NCBI RefSeq assembly: GCF_947492715.1
Contig: NZ_CANLNS010000001.1
Span: 1 to 64,000, forward strand
Source: an uncultured Psychroserpens sp.
GTDB taxonomy: Bacteria > Bacteroidota > Bacteroidia > Flavobacteriales > Flavobacteriaceae
Direction of reading: 5' to 3'
DNA length: 64,000 bases
Of the stretch, positions 17,882 through 26,489 are shown piece by piece; position 1 is the stretch's first letter; every line of letters begins with the position of its first letter. A program made the position numbers and the translations under genes. Below the pieces are notes generated by a model. It did not search any database, had not been told where the DNA came from, and saw nothing but the letters and a program-made list of their open reading frames with translations.

Positions 17882-18439
17882 TTATACTTTTTCAACTTGC
17901 ATATAACTTAATTCTAACGGTGTCTTTCTTCCGAAGATCTTAACCATTACTTCAAGTTTACGCTTTTCTTCATTTATCTTTTCAATAGTACCATCAAATC
18001 CGTTAAAAGGACCGTCGATAACTTTCACTGTTTCTCCTAGCGTGTAAGGTATTGCTACATTTGCATCTGCATCAACAGCTAATTCATCAACCTTACCTAG
18101 CATTCTATTTACTTCAGCTTGTCTTAATGGCACAGGATCACCTCCTTTTGTTTCACCTAAAAAACCTATAACATTAGTAATAGATTTAATAATATGAGGA
18201 ATCTCACCACTTAAGTTAGCCTGAATCATAATATATCCAGGAAAATAAACACGTTCTTTATTTATCTTCTTTCCATTACGAATCTGGATTACTTTTTCCG
18301 TTGGAACTAATACTTGGTCAACATAATCCTCTAACCCTAATCTCGAAATTTCATTTTCGATATAGGCTTTGATTTTATTTTCTTGACCACTTACAGCTCT
18401 AACAACGTACCATTTTTTATTTACATTAGTTTCAGACAT
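17882..18439 (-). CDS. nusG: Transcription termination/antitermination factor NusG
   Basis: NusG binds RNA polymerase and links it to Rho or ribosomes; 185 residues. The NGN domain opens with NKKWYVVRAVSGQENKIK and the C-terminal KOW domain contains VKVIDGPFNGFDGTIEKINEEK. Length and position 15 bp after secE are normal. The ATG at 18439 is chosen because the Trp-Tyr-Val-Val core falls at the usual distance. Confidence 0.97.
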   Translation of the reverse strand: MSETNVNKKWYVVRAVSGQENKIKAYIENEISRLGLEDYVDQVLVPTEKVIQIRNGKKINKERVYFPGYIMIQANLSGEIPHIIKSITNVIGFLGETKGGDPVPLRQAEVNRMLGKVDELAVDADANVAIPYTLGETVKVIDGPFNGFDGTIEKINEEKRKLEVMVKIFGRKTPLELSYMQVEKV

Positions 18440-18454
18440 CCTCTTCTGTGTTGT

Positions 18455-18649
18455 TTAGTTCATTAAAGTAAAGTAAGCCTCAATGACTTTACTAAAAACA
18501 GTATCAACTCCCCAAATAGCCAATGAGAATATGATTGAAAATACAGCGACTAATACGGTTAAGCTTTGCCCCTCTGCCAATGTTGGCCAAGACACATTAT
18601 TCTTTAACTCGTCAAAAGATTCTTTTATATAATTTACAATTCCTGCCAT
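18455..18649 (-). CDS. secE: Preprotein translocase subunit SecE
   Basis: Small membrane subunit of the SecYEG channel, 64 residues with one transmembrane helix (SLTVLVAVFSIIFSLAIWGV). The amphipathic part reads YIKESFDELKNNVSWPTLAE, with the conserved V-x-WP motif. The start is the ATG at 18649; the frame runs further upstream only because it passes through the tRNA-Trp gene. The order tRNA-Trp, secE, nusG is common in bacteria. Confidence 0.95.
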   Translation of the reverse strand: MAGIVNYIKESFDELKNNVSWPTLAEGQSLTVLVAVFSIIFSLAIWGVDTVFSKVIEAYFTLMN

Positions 18650-18664
18650 TTGATTTTTAATTTG

Positions 18665-18737
18665 CACGGGTTGAGAGACTCGAACTCCCGACACCTGGTT
18701 TTGGAGACCAGTGCTCTACCAACTGAGCTAAACCCGT
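18665..18737 (-). tRNA. tRNA-Trp (CCA)
   Basis: On the minus strand a complete cloverleaf begins ACGGGTTTAGCTCAG and ends in CAACCCGTG. The anticodon loop CTCCAAA carries CCA. The acceptor stem ACGGGTT/AACCCGT pairs perfectly; 3' CCA is not encoded. It sits between tuf and secE. Confidence 0.96.
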
Positions 18738-18748
18738 AAATATAAATC

Positions 18749-18776
18749 AAGGCGTTCCGACAAATCGGAACACCTT
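18749..18776 (-). other. tuf to tRNA-Trp spacer hairpin
   Basis: Arms AAGGCGTTCCGA and TCGGAACACCTT form a 12-position stem with one C-A mismatch around a CAAA loop. It is followed on the transcript by an AU-rich but not pure U stretch, so it may be a leaky terminator or a processing site between tuf and the downstream tRNA. Confidence 0.6.
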
Positions 18777-18800
18777 AATTAATATTTATTTGATAAATAT

Positions 18801-19988
18801 TTAGTCTAAAATTTCAGTAACCTGACCTGCACCTACTGTTCTACCACCTTCACGGATTGCGAAACGTAAACCAACGTTCATTGCAATTGGTTGAATTAAT
18901 TCAACAGTGATAGTAAGGTTATCTCCAGGCATTACCATTTCAACTCCATCAGGAAGCGCAATGTTTCCAGTTACGTCAGTTGTACGTACGTAGAACTGTG
19001 GACGGTAGTTGTTATGGAATGGAGTGTGACGTCCACCTTCTTCTTTCTTAAGGATATAAACCTCAGCTTTAAATTTAGCGTGTGGTGTTACAGATCCTGG
19101 CTTAGTAATAACCATACCTCTAGAGATTTGAGTTTTCTCAATACCTCTTAATAAGATACCAGCATTATCTCCAGCTTCTCCTCTATCAAGGATTTGACGG
19201 AACATTTCAATACCAGTAATAGTAGATGTTAATTTCTCAGCACCCATACCAATGATCTCAACTGGATCACCTGTATTTGCAACACCTGTTTCGATACGAC
19301 CTGTAGCAACAGTTCCACGACCAGTAATTGAGAATACATCTTCAATTGGCATTAAGAATGGCTTATCCATATCACGTACTGGCTCTTCGATCCAGCTATC
19401 AACAGCTTCCATTAATTCCATTACTGTATCTACCCACTTTTGCTCACCATTAAGTGCACCTAAAGCAGAACCAGCGATTACAGGACCATTATCTCCATCA
19501 TACTCATAGAATGATAATAAATCTCTGATTTCCATCTCTACTAATTCTAATAACTCTTCATCATCAACCATATCCACTTTATTCATGAATACAACTATAC
19601 GTGGAATACCTACCTGACGTCCTAAAAGGATGTGCTCACGAGTTTGTGGCATTGGACCATCTGTAGCAGCTACAACTAAAATAGCACCATCCATTTGAGC
19701 AGCACCAGTTACCATGTTCTTTACGTAATCGGCGTGACCTGGACAGTCAACGTGAGCGTAATGACGATTTGATGTTTGATACTCTACGTGAGATGTGTTA
19801 ATTGTTATACCTCTCTCTTTTTCTTCAGGAGCGTTATCGATAGTATCGAAATCTCTTGCTTCAGATAAACCTGCATCAGCTAATACTTTAGTAATAGCAG
19901 CAGTTAAAGTTGTTTTACCGTGATCTACGTGTCCAATAGTACCAATGTTTAAGTGTGGTTTTGAACGATCGAAAGTTGCCTTTGCCAT
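18801..19988 (-). CDS. tuf: Elongation factor Tu
   Basis: EF-Tu delivers aminoacyl-tRNA to the ribosome; 395 residues, full length. G1 is GHVDHGKTT (residues 19-27), followed by [21 protein letters not shown] and NKVD. Domains 2 and 3 are intact up to [10 protein letters not shown]. It is directly downstream of four tRNA genes and upstream of tRNA-Trp, so its messenger is probably made from the promoter before tRNA-Thr(UGU) and cut free by tRNA processing enzymes. Confidence 0.98.
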
Positions 19989-20046
19989 TGTTTAATTTAT
20001 TTAATCTTATTTATATTAGTGTTCAATTTAATTTTAATTCGAAAAG

Positions 20047-20118
20047 AGCCAATGACGAGATTTGAACTCGTGACCTCTTCCTTACCAAGGAAACGCTCTA
20101 CCCCTGAGCTACACCGGC
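20047..20118 (-). tRNA. tRNA-Thr (GGU)
   Basis: Minus-strand cloverleaf starting GCCGGTGTAGCTCAG; the anticodon loop TTGGTAA carries GGT. The acceptor stem GCCGGTG/CATTGGC contains two G-U pairs. 3' CCA is not encoded. It is the tRNA nearest to tuf. Confidence 0.95.
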
Positions 20119-20134
20119 GTAAAGTGTTTACTTC

Positions 20135-20171
20135 CTCATTTATTAAATGAGATTCCTGCCTTCGCAGGAAT
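20135..20171 (-). other. Twin hairpins between tRNA-Gly and tRNA-Thr(GGU)
   Basis: Two adjacent perfect hairpins: 20135-20151 (CTCATTT/AAATGAG) and 20152-20171 (ATTCCTGC/GCAGGAAT). The second matches the imperfect palindrome found after rpoC, so this may be a dispersed palindromic repeat inserted in the tRNA spacer. Confidence 0.6.
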
Positions 20172-20176
20172 TTTTG

Positions 20177-20249
20177 AGCGGGAGACCGGGTTCGAACCGG
20201 CGACATTCAGCTTGGAAGGCTGACGCTCTACCAACTGAGCTACTCCCGC
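20177..20249 (-). tRNA. tRNA-Gly (UCC)
   Basis: Minus-strand cloverleaf starting GCGGGAGTAGCTCAG; the anticodon loop CTTCCAA carries TCC. The acceptor stem GCGGGAG/CTCCCGC is perfect. 3' CCA is not encoded. Confidence 0.96.
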
Positions 20250-20294
20250 TTTTATAATCTTTTTACTGATTATAGGTTTTCAATATTTCAAATT

Positions 20295-20321
20295 GGATCA
20301 CCTCGCGTTGTTCGGTGATCC
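20295..20321 (-). other. Hairpin between tRNA-Tyr and tRNA-Gly
   Basis: Perfect 8-bp stem GGATCACC/GGTGATCC with an 11-base loop and no following U-run; probably a spacer or processing structure in the polycistronic tRNA precursor. Confidence 0.5.
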
Positions 20322-20407
20322 TAGATTGAGTTAACAATCCAAGCAATTTTTTAATTCTGTTTTATCAAAAGCTAACTTTTGACAACTTCCTTATTAAAAA
20401 TTGTTTG

Positions 20408-20489
<82 letters not shown>

Positions 20490-20543
20490 AATTTTAAAGA
20501 ACTTTTGCTAAATCTAACACTTGTTATTTCTAGACTTTTTTAG

Positions 20544-20617
20544 AGCCGATGGAGGGACTCGAACCCACGACCTGCTGATTACAAATCAGCTGCTCTAGCC
20601 AGCTGAGCTACATCGGC
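20544..20617 (-). tRNA. tRNA-Thr (UGU)
   Basis: Minus-strand cloverleaf starting GCCGATGTAGCTCAG; the anticodon loop TTTGTAA carries TGT. Acceptor stem GCCGATG/CATCGGC is perfect. It is the first gene of the tRNA-tuf transcription unit, about 45 nt after the predicted start site. Confidence 0.96.
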
Positions 20618-20639
20618 TTTTCTATAACTTTTTCGCTAT

Positions 20640-20666
20640 AAAAAAAGCCCGCTATTTCTAACGGAC
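20640..20666 (-). terminator. hpf terminator
   Basis: On the minus strand an 8-bp stem (GTCCGTTA/TAGCGGGC, with G-U pairs) closes a GAAA tetraloop and is followed by seven Us. It ends the xerC-hpf unit. The predicted start of the next transcript falls in its 5' arm. Confidence 0.8.
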
Positions 20667-20668
20667 TG

Positions 20669-20697
20669 CAAATGTAAAGATTTATTTATTTATTCAA
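20669..20697 (-). promoter_or_regulatory. Promoter of the tRNA-tuf operon
   Basis: On the minus strand a TTG (20697-20695) is followed after 18 bp by TACATTTG (20676-20669), an exact match to the Bacteroidota TTG/TAnnTTTG promoter pattern. The predicted start lies near 20664-20661. Confidence 0.75.
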
Positions 20698-20718
20698 AAC
20701 ATTTTTTGAAAAATTTTA

Positions 20719-21021
20719 TCAGATATGTGCTCTTAATTTTTCTTTTCGCTTTTTTAGCTGTCTTTCTAGAGACGAAACTGCCATATCTGTTCCTTCTTCA
20801 AATGTTTTACATTGTTTTTTCACAATAAAACTATCTCCTGGAACTTTAACGCGTGCTTCAAAAATTTTATTCTCTTTGTCACTTGTGTTTTCAACTTTCA
20901 AATACACGTCAGATTGAATGACCTTATCATAAAACATATCTAGTTTATCCATTCGTTTTTGAATAAAGTCAATGAGCTTTCTGTCTGCGCTGAAATTTAC
21001 AGATTGTGTGTTTACCTTCAT
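20719..21021 (-). CDS. hpf: Ribosome hibernation promoting factor, short form
   Basis: HPF/RaiA-family protein of 100 residues that binds the 30S decoding region in stationary phase to idle ribosomes. The conserved beta-alpha-beta core is visible: VNTQSVNFSADRKLIDFIQKR, then DVYLKVEN and EARVKVPG, ending with ERQLKKRKEKLRAH. It lacks the extra C-terminal domain of long HPF. It lies 27 bp after xerC and is followed by its own terminator. Confidence 0.93.
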   Translation of the reverse strand: MKVNTQSVNFSADRKLIDFIQKRMDKLDMFYDKVIQSDVYLKVENTSDKENKIFEARVKVPGDSFIVKKQCKTFEEGTDMAVSSLERQLKKRKEKLRAHI

Positions 21022-21048
21022 AATCGTTCTTTTATTGGTTAGACAATA

Positions 21049-21939
21049 TTATTTTTTACTTCTTGGGTGTGTATTAGAATACACTTTTTTTAATTCTGCT
21101 ATACTGTTATGAGTATAGACTTGTGTTGCTGCTAAACTTGAATGACCAAGGAGTTCTTTCACAGCATTTAGGTTTGCACCTTGATTAAGCAAATGAGTCG
21201 CAAATGAGTGCCTCAATATATGCGGACTTCTTTTCACTTTGGTAGATACCTTACTAAAGTAGTCATTTATAATTCTGTAAACAAGAGTTTCATAAATTTT
21301 AACCCCTTTTTTAGTTAAAAATAAATAGGAATGATCTACTATAGTTTCTAAACTCTTTCTCTGATCTAAATAGTCTTTGATTGTATCTATCACAGAATCA
21401 ATTAACGGAATGATTCGTTCCTTATTTCTTTTCCCTAATACTTTTAACGATTTATTAGACATATCAACATCTGATAATTTCAGTTGAACCAATTCTATTC
21501 TTCGAATTCCTGTAGCATAAAACAACTCTATTATTAATCTATTCCTTAAACCTTCATAATCTTTTGCAGATTGCAACTCTTCGATAACCTCTTTCATTTC
21601 AGTTTCTGAGAATGGCACCTGAACTTTTTTACTCACCTTTAATGCTTTGTGTTTGGCTAATGGATTTATAGTAATTTGTTTCGTTTTAAGCAGAAACTTA
21701 TAATAGGTGTTTAAGGAAGATATTTTTCTATTGATGCTTCTATTGGTGATTTGACTTTCGACAAGATGAACAATCCAATTTCTAATTTGTTGATAATTTA
21801 CCGTATCTATATTATCTGTATCAAACTGAGACCATATAAACCCTTGAAATTCTTTTAGGTCATTGATATAGGCTTTCAATGTTAATTTTGAATAATTTCT
21901 TTCCAGTAATAAATAGTCTGAAAATGCTTTGAAAGTCAT
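21049..21939 (-). CDS. xerC: Tyrosine recombinase XerC-like
   Basis: Site-specific recombinase of 296 residues, most likely acting at dif to resolve chromosome dimers. The N-terminal SAM-like core-binding domain (residues 1-90) is followed by the catalytic domain with R146 (TGIRRIEL), K170, H240-xx-R243 (PHILRHSFATHLL), H266 (LLGHSSL) and the nucleophile Y275 (ATQVYTH). All catalytic residues are present. Its place among housekeeping genes, between rpsU and hpf, with no integrase att sites or cargo, argues for the chromosomal Xer rather than a mobile-element integrase. Confidence 0.93.
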   Translation of the reverse strand: MTFKAFSDYLLLERNYSKLTLKAYINDLKEFQGFIWSQFDTDNIDTVNYQQIRNWIVHLVESQITNRSINRKISSLNTYYKFLLKTKQITINPLAKHKALKVSKKVQVPFSETEMKEVIEELQSAKDYEGLRNRLIIELFYATGIRRIELVQLKLSDVDMSNKSLKVLGKRNKERIIPLIDSVIDTIKDYLDQRKSLETIVDHSYLFLTKKGVKIYETLVYRIINDYFSKVSTKVKRSPHILRHSFATHLLNQGANLNAVKELLGHSSLAATQVYTHNSIAELKKVYSNTHPRSKK

Positions 21940-22012
21940 AGTAATGGTATTAACTCTTGAAGTGTATCTTAAATGTACAACCTTTTATTTGAACTTCACT
22001 AATGCTCAAAAA

Positions 22013-22039
22013 AAATCCTGCTAAAATTTAGCAGGATTT
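22013..22039 (-). terminator. rpsU terminator
   Basis: Arms AAATCCTGCTAAA and TTTAGCAGGATTT form a perfect 13-bp stem, followed on the minus strand by a run of eight Ts. It separates rpsU from xerC. Confidence 0.9.
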
Positions 22040-22058
22040 ATATGATAAAAAACACGTG

Positions 22059-22253
22059 TTATACAGCTTCTTGATCTCTAAGACCTTGAACATACTGTGC
22101 TTTTTGTATTTGTGCTCTACGTGCAATTGAAGGTTTTGTAAATTGCTTGCGCTCTTGCAACTGGTTTTTAACCGTTGTCTTCACAAACTTACGCTTGTAA
22201 CGTTTTAACGCTCTATCTATATTTTCTCCTTCTTTAACTGGAATTATTAACAT
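22059..22253 (-). CDS. rpsU: 30S ribosomal protein S21 (bS21)
   Basis: Small basic ribosomal protein of 64 residues (MLIIPVKEGENIDRALKRYK, then KRKFVKTT). I start at the ATG at 22253 because bS21 begins there; the longer frame runs through the promoter. In Flavobacterium, bS21 with bS18 and bS6 covers the anti-Shine-Dalgarno tail of 16S rRNA, so most messages do not use SD pairing. This gene has a strong SD (AGGAGG at 22268-22263), fitting autoregulation by ribosomes lacking bS21. It has its own promoter and terminator, so it is monocistronic. Confidence 0.97.
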   Translation of the reverse strand: MLIIPVKEGENIDRALKRYKRKFVKTTVKNQLQERKQFTKPSIARRAQIQKAQYVQGLRDQEAV

Positions 22254-22262
22254 AGTTCTTAA

Positions 22263-22268
22263 CCTCCT
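22263..22268 (-). promoter_or_regulatory. Strong Shine-Dalgarno sequence of rpsU
   Basis: Minus strand reads GAGAGGAGGTTAAGAACT then ATG: AGGAGG with a 9-nt spacer. Extended complementarity (AGGAGGT) to the 16S tail is visible. None of the neighbouring ribosomal protein genes I checked (for example rplK) has anything similar. Confidence 0.85.
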
Positions 22269-22291
22269 CTCTTTTAGATTTTTTAAGGCTG

Positions 22292-22321
22292 CAAATATAG
22301 GAACAAATTTAATATGCACAA
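22292..22321 (-). promoter_or_regulatory. rpsU promoter
   Basis: On the minus strand TTG (22321-22319), 19 bp, then TATATTTG (22299-22292). This matches both Bacteroidota promoter elements and gives a leader of roughly 30-35 nt containing the SD. Confidence 0.8.
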
Positions 22322-22348
22322 CTAAAAAAAATAAATTTTAACTCAGCA

Positions 22349-23725
22349 CTATTTCACAGACCAAACGGAATAACTTTTAGGAGGTGCTTGTATCTTAACC
22401 CATTTACCATATTGAGTTGTTGGCTCCCAGTTAGAATGACCTGTAAAATCTTTAATAACAGTATTTGACCAATTCGTTTCTACCCAGCGTTCTTGCCAGT
22501 TGTCTGAGTTATTAATATATACAACCAAACCTGGGCCATTATAGCCATTTCTCCTTGCAACATATTCATCATTATCTGTATGCAAGATCGTAGTATTACC
22601 GCTGGCCAAATTATTATGTATCCAAATGAGATTGTTTAGACGTTCCTTATTTAACCATTCTTCATAATCTCTATAGAAAATGGTAGGATACCCTTCGTGA
22701 GTCAAAATATAGGCATAAGCTAAGATCTTATTATTAATGATTTCATCGGTATCGTGGTTAGTAACAAAAGTGACAGCTCTTGATGCATTTTGTTTCCAAA
22801 GCATATTATCGTTTAAAGCATTTAAGTTATTACCCATAAATGCATCTCTCATTTTATAGTAGCAAGCAAAATCAAAAGCACTTACCTCTGCTGCGTTCGT
22901 CCACCAATCTAGAGTTGATACATTACTATCCCAATATTCGCCAACCGAAAAACCACCTACTTCGTTTTTCCAATCTTTTACTACCCAAGGTTCAAAGCCT
23001 TTTACGTAATCAAAACGCCATCCGTCAAAACCAATGACATCTCTATAATACTTTGCGACGCTATTAGAATTTTTCCAGAGCCAATCTTGAACATAAGTTT
23101 GATGATGACACAAATCTGGAAAACCACCAAAGACTCCTGTATCATTTGAATGTATATTATTAGGGTGAAAATCTGATGACGATCTATAGAAGTTACCCGA
23201 AAGCGGGTTAAAATCGGTATAGGTATTACCTCCTGTATAAGGGTTAACTTCTGTATCTCCTCCACTGTTATGATTAATAACAATATCTGCAATAACACTA
23301 AGCCCGTTTTGATGAGCGGTACTTATCATCGTTGTGAGTTCGGTTCTGGATCCGAAACGTGTTTCGATGCTTCCCATTTGATTGTACTCTCCAAAATCGT
23401 AATAATCAAAAGGATCATATCCCATTGAAAATGGTCCATTTTGAGCTTTAGTGGCAGGCGGAAGCCAAATAGCATCTATTCCTGCATTACTCCAATCTGC
23501 GACTTTAGAGTTTATTGTATTCCACCAAGTTCCACCTGATGGGACATCCCAATAGAAGGCTTGCATCATAACGCCCTCACCAATAGGCTTTAATCCTGCA
23601 CGTTGAACTATTTCACTATTCTCTTTTTGCTGAATCGGTTCGTCTGAACTAGAAAGGTTTTCTTTTTCGCAATTAAAAAGGCACAACATTACTAATGCCA
23701 TACCATAACGTTTAAGGTTTTTCAT
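22349..23725 (-). CDS. GH13 alpha-amylase lipoprotein
   Basis: Surface-exposed or periplasmic endo-acting alpha-amylase, 458 residues. The signal peptide ends in lipobox LFNC with C19, followed by an acidic linker (ENLSSSDEP) of the kind linked to surface export. The (beta/alpha)8 GH13 domain has region I DIVINH (147-152), nucleophile D239 in GFDGWRFDY, acid/base E263 in VGEYWD and D325 in TNHDTD. A C-terminal beta domain ends in PPKSYSVWSVK. The gene is solitary, with no susC/susD nearby in the window, and carries a palindromic operator upstream, so maltose or starch control by a LacI-type regulator is inferred. Confidence 0.93.
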   Translation of the reverse strand: MKNLKRYGMALVMLCLFNCEKENLSSSDEPIQQKENSEIVQRAGLKPIGEGVMMQAFYWDVPSGGTWWNTINSKVADWSNAGIDAIWLPPATKAQNGPFSMGYDPFDYYDFGEYNQMGSIETRFGSRTELTTMISTAHQNGLSVIADIVINHNSGGDTEVNPYTGGNTYTDFNPLSGNFYRSSSDFHPNNIHSNDTGVFGGFPDLCHHQTYVQDWLWKNSNSVAKYYRDVIGFDGWRFDYVKGFEPWVVKDWKNEVGGFSVGEYWDSNVSTLDWWTNAAEVSAFDFACYYKMRDAFMGNNLNALNDNMLWKQNASRAVTFVTNHDTDEIINNKILAYAYILTHEGYPTIFYRDYEEWLNKERLNNLIWIHNNLASGNTTILHTDNDEYVARRNGYNGPGLVVYINNSDNWQERWVETNWSNTVIKDFTGHSNWEPTTQYGKWVKIQAPPKSYSVWSVK

Positions 23726-23792
23726 AAGATATAAGATTTGGTTACGTAAAAAAGTTACATAATTCTGTAACTAAACCAAAATCAAAAGGTTT

Positions 23793-23808
23793 ACGAAAAC
23801 GTTTTCGT
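23793..23808. promoter_or_regulatory. LacI-type palindromic operator upstream of the amylase
   Basis: Perfect 16-bp palindrome ACGAAAACGTTTTCGT centred on CG, 68 bp upstream of the amylase ATG. The form is typical of operators bound by LacI/GalR-family repressors. No such regulator gene is in the window, so it would act from elsewhere. Confidence 0.7.
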
Positions 23809-23844
23809 GTTAATAACTAAGTGCTTTTAAGCCTGAAAATGTGA

Positions 23845-25281
23845 TTAATCTTTAAAAAGTGATGCTCTCTGACTTAAATCTTCAATCATTTTTTCATCCT
23901 CTTCGCTCTCAAGAAGGATATTATAATTTTTCCAAAAGGCTTTGTTATAAGGTTTTGGCGAAAAAATATCCATATCCCATTCGCCATCCAAAGTTGTCTT
24001 TATAACCTCTTTATCTAAGATGATTTCAGAAAAGAGAATTTCTTGAACTGTGTAATAATAACGTTCCTCTTTATTGTAGCGTTCTTTTTCTTCGTCACTT
24101 ACTTTTTCATCGGCTTTAAAGCCAACGTTAACTAATTTAGGAGTTTCATAATAAATGTAATTAGGATACATTTTATCTTCGTATTCTATATACGTGATAA
24201 TTAATTTATGATTCGTTTGCGTGTCAAACAAGCGTTTACTTCTTACTTTTTGAGCATCTGAGGCAGCTACAAGTTCGTACTCTATCTTTTTTATAGCATA
24301 ATTATCATAATAGATATACAACCAACCATTGGCAACGTAGCCTTCATTAAAAATACCTTTAGTACCAAGTCCAACAAAATCTGTACTTTCTGAAATTTTA
24401 ATTTTATAGATTTTTCGATCATTATCCACCAAAATTGTATCCAATTCAAATTGATGTTTATCTAGGATATTCTCTCCAAATAAGGCTTTTGCATCATTTG
24501 AATTACGAAGCAAATTCAATTTGCCTTGAAAGATATTCTGAAGCCCGTTCACTCTATTGTCATTCCATTTTATGGCGTCTACTAATTGAGATGTACGCAA
24601 CTGACTCCGTCTTACGTCTTTAGGTTTTAAACGTCTACTTCTTGTATTTTGATTTTTATAAGACACGTATGAAAATATACTATCCACATCCCTAAGGTCG
24701 TAGCTCTTTCTCATTTGATCTACATTAATTTTTAAGTAATCTGAACTTTTAGAACCATAACCAGAATCATAGACCGTTATCGCACTTTCAATAAGCCATT
24801 TAAACTCAATTTTATTTCGTTCTTTATGTCTTAAGAATCCTTTTTGTATGTATGCAGAGTCTGGCAAATTATTAGAGAGCTTTTCCATGGCTCTTAGTAC
24901 AATCTCATTCCCTGTTTTTGGGCGCGTTTCTGCTATAAGAACAATCTCATCCAATGACGCCACATCTTCTTCTAAATAAACATCAACTGTATTATCAAAT
25001 TCGTTTACAGGTATCTTGTAACTTTTGTATCCAATTGAAGAAATAATTAAGGTGTCTTTTGCAAATTCTTGTGGGACTTGAAGTAGAAACTTTCCGTCAG
25101 AATTACTCACGGTACCAATAGTTGTATTCTTTACATAAATACTAGCACTTTCAATAGGTAAGAGCGTTCCGAAGTCAACAATTTTATTTTTGACTTCTGT
25201 TTGTGAGAATACTGTGGTTGTTATTAGCAATATTCCTAGTGCTAAACAATGTTTTAAAAATTTAATTCCCATTCTAAGCAT
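23845..25281 (-). CDS. Carboxypeptidase-like regulatory domain protein, secreted
   Basis: A 478-residue envelope protein. The signal peptide ends at VFSQ; residues about 27-110 form a CarboxypepD_reg-like beta-sandwich (IVDFGTLLPIESASIYVKN, TIGTVSNSDGKFLLQVP, IGYKSYKIPV), as in the N-terminal part of many TonB-dependent transporters, but no plug or beta-barrel follows. The rest (SDYLKINVDQMRKSYDLRDV, RLFDTQTNHKLIITYIEYED) resembles Bacteroidota DUF5686-like outer-membrane proteins only loosely. Function unknown. It follows the acyl-CoA dehydrogenase by 41 bp. An ATG at 25272 is an alternative start. Confidence 0.7.
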   Translation of the reverse strand: MLRMGIKFLKHCLALGILLITTTVFSQTEVKNKIVDFGTLLPIESASIYVKNTTIGTVSNSDGKFLLQVPQEFAKDTLIISSIGYKSYKIPVNEFDNTVDVYLEEDVASLDEIVLIAETRPKTGNEIVLRAMEKLSNNLPDSAYIQKGFLRHKERNKIEFKWLIESAITVYDSGYGSKSSDYLKINVDQMRKSYDLRDVDSIFSYVSYKNQNTRSRRLKPKDVRRSQLRTSQLVDAIKWNDNRVNGLQNIFQGKLNLLRNSNDAKALFGENILDKHQFELDTILVDNDRKIYKIKISESTDFVGLGTKGIFNEGYVANGWLYIYYDNYAIKKIEYELVAASDAQKVRSKRLFDTQTNHKLIITYIEYEDKMYPNYIYYETPKLVNVGFKADEKVSDEEKERYNKEERYYYTVQEILFSEIILDKEVIKTTLDGEWDMDIFSPKPYNKAFWKNYNILLESEEDEKMIEDLSQRASLFKD

Positions 25282-25322
25282 GTTATTTAATTGATGAGCC
25301 AGTATCTATTCCTGAACTTATA

Positions 25323-26489
25323 TCAGGTGGCGGGTTTGTAATCTTTATCATCGATTACCATCTTCGCAATTATTTCTCTAAGGATCTCCGATGTTCCACC
25401 TCCTATTGGTCCTAATCTACTATCACGTAACAATCTTGCCATTGGATACTCTTCCATATATCCATAACCTCCTAAAAATTGGAGACATTGATAAATGACT
25501 TCATCAGCCATTTTAGTAGAGCGCAATTTAGAAATTGTTGCTTCCTTTACTACATATTCTCCTTTATCTAATCTGCTAGCAACAGTATAGTTAAATTCCT
25601 TACACATCGTCATGTCGGCATAACAATCTGCAAACGCATGACGTAAGGCTTGAAATTTATTAATAGACTTTCCAAAGGCTTGTCTTTCGCCCATATAAGT
25701 TTTAGCATAATCTAGAGCAAATTCTGCTCTTGCATGTGCATTAATTCCCATGATGAGGCGTTCTAAAGCAAAGTGCTGCATAATGTAAGGAAACCCTTTG
25801 TTTTCTTCACCCATTAAATTAGATGCTGGAATTTTTACATTATCAAAAGCAATCTCTCCTGTATCTGAAGCTCTCCATCCTAGCTTATCTAGTTTTGTTG
25901 CAGAAACTCCAGGCAAATCGCGATCCATTATAAATATACTAATACCTTTATTCCCAAGTTCAGGGTTTGTTTTTGCAGCTACAACGAGATAATCACTATA
26001 TACGCCATTTGTAATAAACGTTTTTGAACCGTTAATCACGTAACTATCACCTTCTTTAACGGCAGTAGTTCTCATTCCTGCTACATCACTACCTCCAAAA
26101 GGTTCGGTAATACATAGACACCCTATTTTATCACCTGTAATACTAGGTGCTAAATATTTTTCTTTGATTGCATGATCTCCTTCTTTATTAACATGTGTCA
26201 TTGCCAAATAAGCATGCGCCCAAATTGCAGCCGCGAATCCTCCAGAGTTTATCTTTTGGAGTTCTTCAAGCAAAATCACGGTGTAAAACAAATCGAGATC
26301 CATACCACCATAAGCTTCAGGATATGCCAATCCGAAAAACCCCATTTCACCAAATTTCTTCCAGATGAAACGTTCAATATGTCCAGTTTCTTCCCATTTA
26401 TCTAGATGTGGAACAACTTCTTTTTGTAAAAAATCCTTTAAACTTTGTCGAAATAATTCATGTTCTTCTGTGAAGTACATACTGCTCAT
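25323..26489 (-). CDS. Acyl-CoA dehydrogenase
   Basis: FAD enzyme that oxidises an acyl-CoA to the 2,3-enoyl-CoA, 388 residues. N-terminal helices, the middle beta domain (LCITEPFGGSDVAGMRTTA) and the C-terminal helical domain are complete. The usual catalytic Glu near the C-terminus (medium-chain type, YEGT) is replaced by Gly in PIGGGTSEILRE; the likely base is E243 in ALERLIMG, as in isovaleryl- or long-chain-type enzymes. Substrate chain length cannot be told. It lies 21 bp after the helix-hairpin-helix gene, apparently an accidental operon neighbour. Confidence 0.93.
   Translation of the reverse strand: MSSMYFTEEHELFRQSLKDFLQKEVVPHLDKWEETGHIERFIWKKFGEMGFFGLAYPEAYGGMDLDLFYTVILLEELQKINSGGFAAAIWAHAYLAMTHVNKEGDHAIKEKYLAPSITGDKIGCLCITEPFGGSDVAGMRTTAVKEGDSYVINGSKTFITNGVYSDYLVVAAKTNPELGNKGISIFIMDRDLPGVSATKLDKLGWRASDTGEIAFDNVKIPASNLMGEENKGFPYIMQHFALERLIMGINAHARAEFALDYAKTYMGERQAFGKSINKFQALRHAFADCYADMTMCKEFNYTVASRLDKGEYVVKEATISKLRSTKMADEVIYQCLQFLGGYGYMEEYPMARLLRDSRLGPIGGGTSEILREIIAKMVIDDKDYKPAT

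Follow-up and report, generated by a model that had tools for sequence, protein, structure and literature searches.

The window analysed here, a stretch of 64,000 nucleotides, contains a gene for ribosomal protein bS21, rpsU, that is preceded by a strong Shine-Dalgarno sequence (SD). In the order as a whole, SDs are reported to be scarcer than expected by chance (PMC9976891, in excerpts). The question is why this gene has one, and how far an explanation that exists for another member of the order accounts for it. In excerpts of the same paper, autoregulation of rpsU by ribosomes that lack bS21 is tested in Flavobacterium johnsoniae, where such ribosomes show faster initiation on rpsU mRNA, for which the extended SD is required (McNutt 2023, PMC9976891). 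The excerpts also state that bS21, bS18 and bS6 hold the tail of 16S rRNA (Jha 2021, as cited in PMC9976891), and that the two criteria by which the paper recognises autoregulated rpsU apply to about 80% of Flavobacteriales. In Flavobacterium, this SD has been described as an unambiguous bacterial example of specialised ribosomes. The SD in the window is a new instance of this known phenomenon: it is real, conserved and explained in principle. Unlike F. johnsoniae, this genome has a second, SD-less bS21 gene. The two-gene arrangement, together with the absence of the SD-gated copy in relatives, would be a new variant of the known circuit. The gene in the window is termed rpsU1 and the second gene rpsU2. 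The rpsU1 locus has the following features, from its promoter-like element to its downstream neighbours:

22319 to 22321, minus strand: -33 element TTG, 19 nt from the -7 box, by pattern match only
22292 to 22299, minus strand: -7 box TATATTTG, by fit to the Bacteroidota promoter pattern
22262 to 22272, minus strand: extended SD of rpsU1, AGAGAGGAGGU, 11 bp to the genome's own 16S tail, -17.6 kcal/mol
22268 to 22263, minus strand: AGGAGG of rpsU1, within AAAAGAGAGGAGGTTAAGAACT
22254 to 22262, minus strand: 9-nt spacer from AGGAGG to ATG, whose first base (22262) also pairs with the 16S tail
22253 to 22251, minus strand: ATG start codon of rpsU1, from the sequence
22059 to 22253, minus strand: rpsU1 (rpsU), a 64-residue bS21 with Tyr54 present, by protein, profile and structure matches
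22013 to 22039, minus strand: intrinsic terminator 3′ of rpsU1, 12-bp stem and T tract (1 found against 0.4, sd 0.9, in shuffles)
21049 to 21939, minus strand: xerC-like tyrosine recombinase gene, the 3′ neighbour that marks the rpsU1 site, by PF00589, PF02899 and synteny
20719 to 21021, minus strand: hpf-like gene (S30AE family), the next neighbour after xerC, by PF02482 (E 1.4e-17)

The rpsU1 product belongs to Pfam PF01165 (E 5.3e-15, 55.3 bits, cut-off 27) and passes the NCBIfam TIGR00030 cut-off of 28.95 with 49.2 bits, as does the rpsU2 product with 49.4. It also matches chain z of PDB entry 7jil, a 30S ribosomal protein S21 (E 4.2e-22). A first-pass annotation of this DNA had described AGGAGG, a 9-nt spacer and ATG at rpsU, and these are present on the minus strand at 22268-22251. 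Of the clean promoter and terminator that it also described, the terminator is borne out; the promoter, TTG-N19-TATATTTG, is presumably of the Bacteroidota type, and a scan for E. coli-type promoters gave nothing on the rpsU1 strand. The promoter-like element ends 38 nt 5′ of the ATG, and a TA-N2-3-TTTG box is found upstream of 68 of the 77 distinct strong-SD bS21 loci. The description as a single gene needs qualifying, since xerC and hpf follow beyond the terminator on the same strand and another bS21 gene lies elsewhere in the genome. On this strand an alpha-amylase gene precedes rpsU1, and xerC, hpf and tRNA genes follow it; the window also has genes for a carboxypeptidase-regulatory-like protein and an acyl-CoA dehydrogenase upstream of rpsU1, with the amylase gene in between. 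The tRNA genes beside hpf-xerC-rpsU are those for Thr, Gly, Tyr and Thr (20046-20617), then Trp (18664-18737), all on the minus strand.

The 3′ end of 16S rRNA in this genome is GGCTGGAACACCTCCTTTCT (GGAACACCTCCTTTCT in a longer reading), which keeps the CCUCC tail. Against a 13-nt tail, the rpsU1 SD forms 11 bp at -17.6 kcal/mol, as calculated with RNAduplex, where McNutt 2023 used free_scan, and with mRNA structure ignored. The leader and start of rpsU1 fold at -21.5 kcal/mol, leaving the SD partly paired. The pairing energy is beyond the < -13 kcal/mol used for SD-autoregulated rpsU in Bacteroidota. As in F. johnsoniae, it falls between the reported limits of -14 and -21 kcal/mol and far exceeds other sampled genes in strength, and the CCUCC tail and Tyr54 are also shared with that species.

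The comparison with all other genes proposed in the first-pass annotation was run on a sample: 372 other ORFs of at least 100 residues, with uncurated first-ATG guesses as starts, from 474 kb of the genome (the window, 20 further stretches and locus L062). The best of these reaches -13.0 kcal/mol, so rpsU1 is stronger than all. Compared with a mock region, pairing at or below -4 kcal/mol is rarer before the sampled starts (36 vs 71), and pairing at or below -10 is not (4 vs 2). Among mononucleotide shuffles of the rpsU1 region, 4 of 10,000 reach -17.6. Other genes scanned in this genome have weak or no pairing, with energies of -2.9 for rpsR, -0.4 for rpsF, 1.8 for rplI and -0.4 kcal/mol for rpsU2, and xerC and hpf are likewise SD-less.

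A genome-wide scan (4.2 Mb) gave 3 sites for RGRRRGGRGG-N4-13-ATG, rpsU1 included, and 12 for RRRRGGRGGT-N3-12-ATG, with rpsU1 among the matches listed (6 of 12). Seven other extended sites among the matches listed pair at -12.8 to -16.5 kcal/mol, which makes rpsU1 the strongest of the eight examined; none of the seven is a convincing gene start. At five of them the ORF from that ATG has merely 5-39 codons, and at another (L261) the ATG is internal to a longer frame. The remaining site, L318 (G000:C3:108200-111200), has AAAGGGAGGTGCGATG at -12.8 kcal/mol near the start of a frame of 386-398 residues. Its ATG could be the start of a 386-residue ORF, although the frame opens 12 codons earlier, and L318 may hold a second SD-like start. 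By comparison, AGGAGG-N4-14-ATG is found at 316 sites genome-wide, against 206 for the reversed pattern. AGGAGG alone before ATG is therefore common, and it is the pairing length that is special at rpsU1. The strong SD claimed for rpsU is upheld by the energy comparison, while its AGGAGG alone is unremarkable.

A hairpin in the rpsU1 leader was considered as an intramolecular anti-SD, as AGCCUU just 3′ of the promoter pairs with the SD. The fold has a z of -2.2, and 2 of 200 shuffles are as good. Among loci with a TA-N2-3-TTTG box, CC follows the box within 8 nt in 30 of 36 with a weak SD or none and in 65 of 68 with a strong SD. Because CC is nearly as common where there is no strong SD, the hairpin was rejected as an SD arm. 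The CC-containing stretch after the -7 box (22286-22291, minus strand), common to bS21 genes with and without an SD, seems to belong to the start region of bS21 promoters, perhaps one connected with growth rate or the stringent response. It is not general in this genome, in which 3 of 25 promoter-like sites have CC within 7 nt. A search for known RNA leaders over 18000-26000 gave only tRNAs above the gathering score, and no weaker match fell at the rpsU leader.

Absence of the SD from relatives would, by the first-pass annotation, have refuted autoregulation. In all 23 genomes of the genus group, this one included, the rpsU1 SD is kept, at -17.6 kcal/mol (loci L032-L048, L052, L053, L055-L057 and L059, from a search of 57 relatives). 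Psychroserpens accounts for most of the named members of this group, alongside one Subsaximicrobium wynnwilliamsii and one Algicola MAG; the genus, taken to be new in the first-pass annotation, is not evidently so. All 24 two-gene genomes reached via named loci have an rpsU1 SD of -17.2 to -17.7 kcal/mol and xerC downstream. At L204 and L205, the SD is kept at -17.2 and -17.5 although the rpsU1 protein has diverged.

The second bS21 gene is located as follows:

G000:C1:259131-259325, outside the window, 237 kb from rpsU1: rpsU2, an SD-less bS21 gene, by TIGR00030 match

Its product is 55% identical to that of rpsU1, i.e., 45% of residues differ, and the middle of the protein reads KHRNVKTMQN instead of KFVKTTVKNQ. 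Its match to the bS21 of 7jil has an E of 1.1e-14, compared to 4.2e-22 for rpsU1. At -0.4 kcal/mol, rpsU2 of this genome is without an extended SD and well outside the -13 kcal/mol limit. A second bS21 gene is present in 23 of 23 genus-group genomes; the 20 copies fetched have SD energies of +2.8 to -3.1 kcal/mol, and comparison of this rpsU2 with six genus members gave 94-95% identity. In all 20 fetched loci, a sigma-factor gene ends 19-31 nt 5′ of rpsU2 (22-34 nt from its last sense codon). The upstream protein has 287 residues and is RpoD/SigA-like, with matches to RpoD models below their cut-offs; from its size and type, it is probably the main sigma factor. In this genome the pair occupies G000:C1:258238-259325 (L062:4239-5326), and the order is the same in all 20 fetched genus loci. 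Outside the genus this linkage is not general, being seen in 45 of 72 bS21 loci examined, a set that is not deduplicated and includes some with short upstream DNA and a few of other bS21 types. The rpsU-dnaG-rpoD macromolecular synthesis operon of E. coli similarly links a bS21 gene to a sigma-70 type factor (PMC10931766, in excerpts), whereas here the sigma gene comes first, rpsU2 follows after 19-31 nt, and the linked copy is the paralog.

In the family sample, 71 of 249 genomes match the second protein at E <= 1e-23. Named carriers of this KHRN type include Psychroserpens, Winogradskyella, Algibacter, Mangrovimonas, Hyunsoonleella, Tamlana, Flavivirga and Yeosuana. Counting loci distinct by sequence, with L134-L181 left out, none of 57 KHRN-type loci pairs at or below -13 kcal/mol (best -9.8) and all 57 have Tyr54. 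Among 70 non-KHRN loci, four of KYR- or KFR-type apart, 55 have a strong SD (all with Tyr54); the 15 without are mostly from other families or are additional copies. At L092, the rpsU leader has TGAGATGT instead of AGGAGG and position 54 is His, not Tyr; TGAGATGT fits UCUCA, an alternative anti-SD published for relatives of Chryseobacterium. The locus had also been put forward as a compact test case, which it is not: a second, SD-less bS21 gene with Tyr54 means that this is not a one-gene system, and depletion of rpsU1 alone would therefore probably be buffered.

More than one bS21 gene per genome is also found in Francisella tularensis, which has three homologs, one of them supporting growth in macrophages (PMC9578407, in excerpts). 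In contrast to Francisella, the present lineage hides its anti-SD, and of its two copies one is SD-gated and the other SD-less. The list of taxa with extra bS21 copies in McNutt 2023 names no Bacteroidota in the excerpts consulted (PMC9976891). In excerpts of Yutin 2012 (PMC3353972), PMC10783764, PMC8710568 and PMC10931766, a second bS21 gene in Flavobacteriaceae goes unmentioned, as it does in the titles and starts of abstracts listed from the open-licence literature. The two-bS21 arrangement of Flavobacteriaceae may thus be unpublished.

In some relatives only the second type was found. KHRN-type loci led to 31 genomes of unstated completeness (31 of the 32 loci L102-L133, L104 being left out), of which 24 also hold rpsU1. 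The other seven are Winogradskyella psychrotolerans E3R09 and D3R19, W. flava, W. immobilis, Aurantibacter aestuarii and two MAGs. Three more, G201 (one contig), G239 and G135, come from the family sample. G182 and G237 occupy the same contig places as two of the seven and were treated as identical to them, and G110, with a single bS21, was left out as 80% complete. In five genomes listed as 99% complete, the rpsU2-type copy is the only bS21 found. An orthologous xerC is found in nine of the ten rpsU2-only genomes, while G317 gave merely a distant recombinase match. In none of these nine is there a bS21 ORF upstream of xerC. In all nine, xerC and the next gene are 6-195 nt apart, the latter being a homolog of the window's carboxypeptidase-regulatory-like gene in five genomes (64-73% identity) and of its acyl-CoA dehydrogenase gene in four (83-85%). 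The bS21 gene that these rpsU2-only genomes retain is in no case preceded by a strong SD.

That rpsU1 is missing from nine of nine sites fits an rpsU2 able to meet the need for bS21. From this synteny it is argued that rpsU1 was lost rather than gained. On a quick xerC tree the distribution takes 3 changes, 2 of which cannot be avoided given the well-supported branches, and such counts cannot tell loss from gain; the tree has 65 inner branches (13 starred, 22 open), L059 has no xerC ORF, identical xerC sequences were entered once, and the "P1only" labels are partly assumed. Absence in relatives shows that they can do without the loop, and the case for a vital role here is weaker for it. A 16S match was obtained in 14 of 38 and 1 of 17 genomes, with misses even in single-contig ones, and the tail is readable in one rpsU2-only genome, W. 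immobilis (G322), in which CCTCC is intact. With a view to a possible transfer of the SD to another gene in rpsU2-only genomes, RRRRGGRGGT-N3-12-ATG was counted in 10 rpsU2-only and 6 two-gene genomes; among the matches listed, neither set has a consistent excess over a reversed control.

The first-pass annotation proposed that rpsU is autoregulated. Testable sequence signatures of this are present, but the mechanism is already published for F. johnsoniae and is not new. By analogy, autoregulation of rpsU1 in this organism is likely, because of the SD, the 16S tail, Tyr54, the close bS18 and bS6, and the SD-less rpsR, rpsF, rplI, xerC and hpf. The bS18 and bS6 of this genome align with 7jil chains over 98 of 98 and 109 of 112 residues, and the tail-binding pocket was checked by the residue at Tyr54 only. 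The favoured reading, which we hold to be reasonably probable, is that rpsU1 is SD-gated and self-limiting beside an SD-less rpsU2 that provides a base supply. In this reading, 30S subunits without bS21 would expose a free 16S tail, which would pair with the 11-bp rpsU1 SD so that bS21 is made; the new bS21 would close the tail again. In parallel, rpsU2, probably cotranscribed with the sigma-factor gene just upstream, would be read without an SD by ordinary ribosomes, with no need for a free anti-SD. Its product would form the base supply of bS21 and also occlude the tail, holding rpsU1 down, such that rpsU1 would act as an adjustable top-up. The SD half of this reading would carry over by analogy from the F. 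johnsoniae experiments; the rpsU2 product would have to enter ribosomes, repress rpsU1 and divide the work with it. The broader proposition is more tentative, with chances a little under even: in one branch of Flavobacteriaceae, the SD-less copy may cross-repress the gated gene, set the working point of the loop, and have replaced the gated gene in several lineages, with CCUCC intact in W. immobilis.

Counterpoints to a two-gene circuit are that rpsU2 might serve a special condition and that its protein diverges from that of rpsU1 in the middle. It is rather unlikely, though worth serious attention, that rpsU1 is autoregulated as in F. johnsoniae while a minor or condition-specific rpsU2 stays outside the loop. 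The SD signature of rpsU1 alone fits the published circuit, and the weaker match of rpsU2 to the 7jil bS21 (E 1.1e-14 vs 4.2e-22) points the same way; against a minor role stand Tyr54 in 57 of 57 KHRN-type loci, the 94-95% identity of six genus copies to this rpsU2, the adjoining sigma-factor gene, and the five genomes given as 99% complete in which no bS21 but this type was found. We consider it improbable that rpsU2 is specialised, making ribosomes with another mRNA preference, as proposed for Francisella, with the rpsU1 SD setting the ratio. The KHRN-type copy is the sole bS21 found in nine genomes with an empty rpsU1 site and must therefore do the general job there, even though the paralogs differ at 45% of residues, some genomes (G031, G198) have three bS21 genes, and bS21 paralogs elsewhere are hypothesised to regulate translation (McNutt 2023, PMC9976891, in excerpts).

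That the rpsU1 SD has no present function, being either a relic or a run of purines arisen by chance, has very little probability. Most genes of the phylum do not use SDs according to the literature, rpsU1 can be lost, and the region is purine-rich, with 4 of its 10,000 shuffles pairing equally well. Against this stand the constant -17.6 kcal/mol in 23 of 23 genus genomes, the SDs kept beside diverged proteins at L204 (-17.2) and L205 (-17.5), and the lack of another convincing gene start among the extended sites examined from the matches listed.

Genomes with both genes and genomes without the gated copy offer direct tests of the loop's purpose and dispensability, and of the reason for keeping the anti-SD in a phylum that hides it. 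The rpsU2-only relatives, if truly so, would be natural knock-outs of specialised-ribosome autoregulation. If the gated gene was replaced in them, the use of an SD by bS21 would have ended there, and why the anti-SD was retained would become the question. In Psychroserpens, Winogradskyella, Algibacter and their kin, rpsU depletion tests must handle both copies.

Some genomes go beyond two copies. Additional SD-less bS21 genes bring the number to three per genome in G031 (L085, L086) and G198 (L229), and the extra G031 copies are without Tyr at position 54 (KAQHKAAY). In a MAG named Phaeodactylibacter (L158), three SD-less KHRN-type bS21 ORFs lie within 6 kb.
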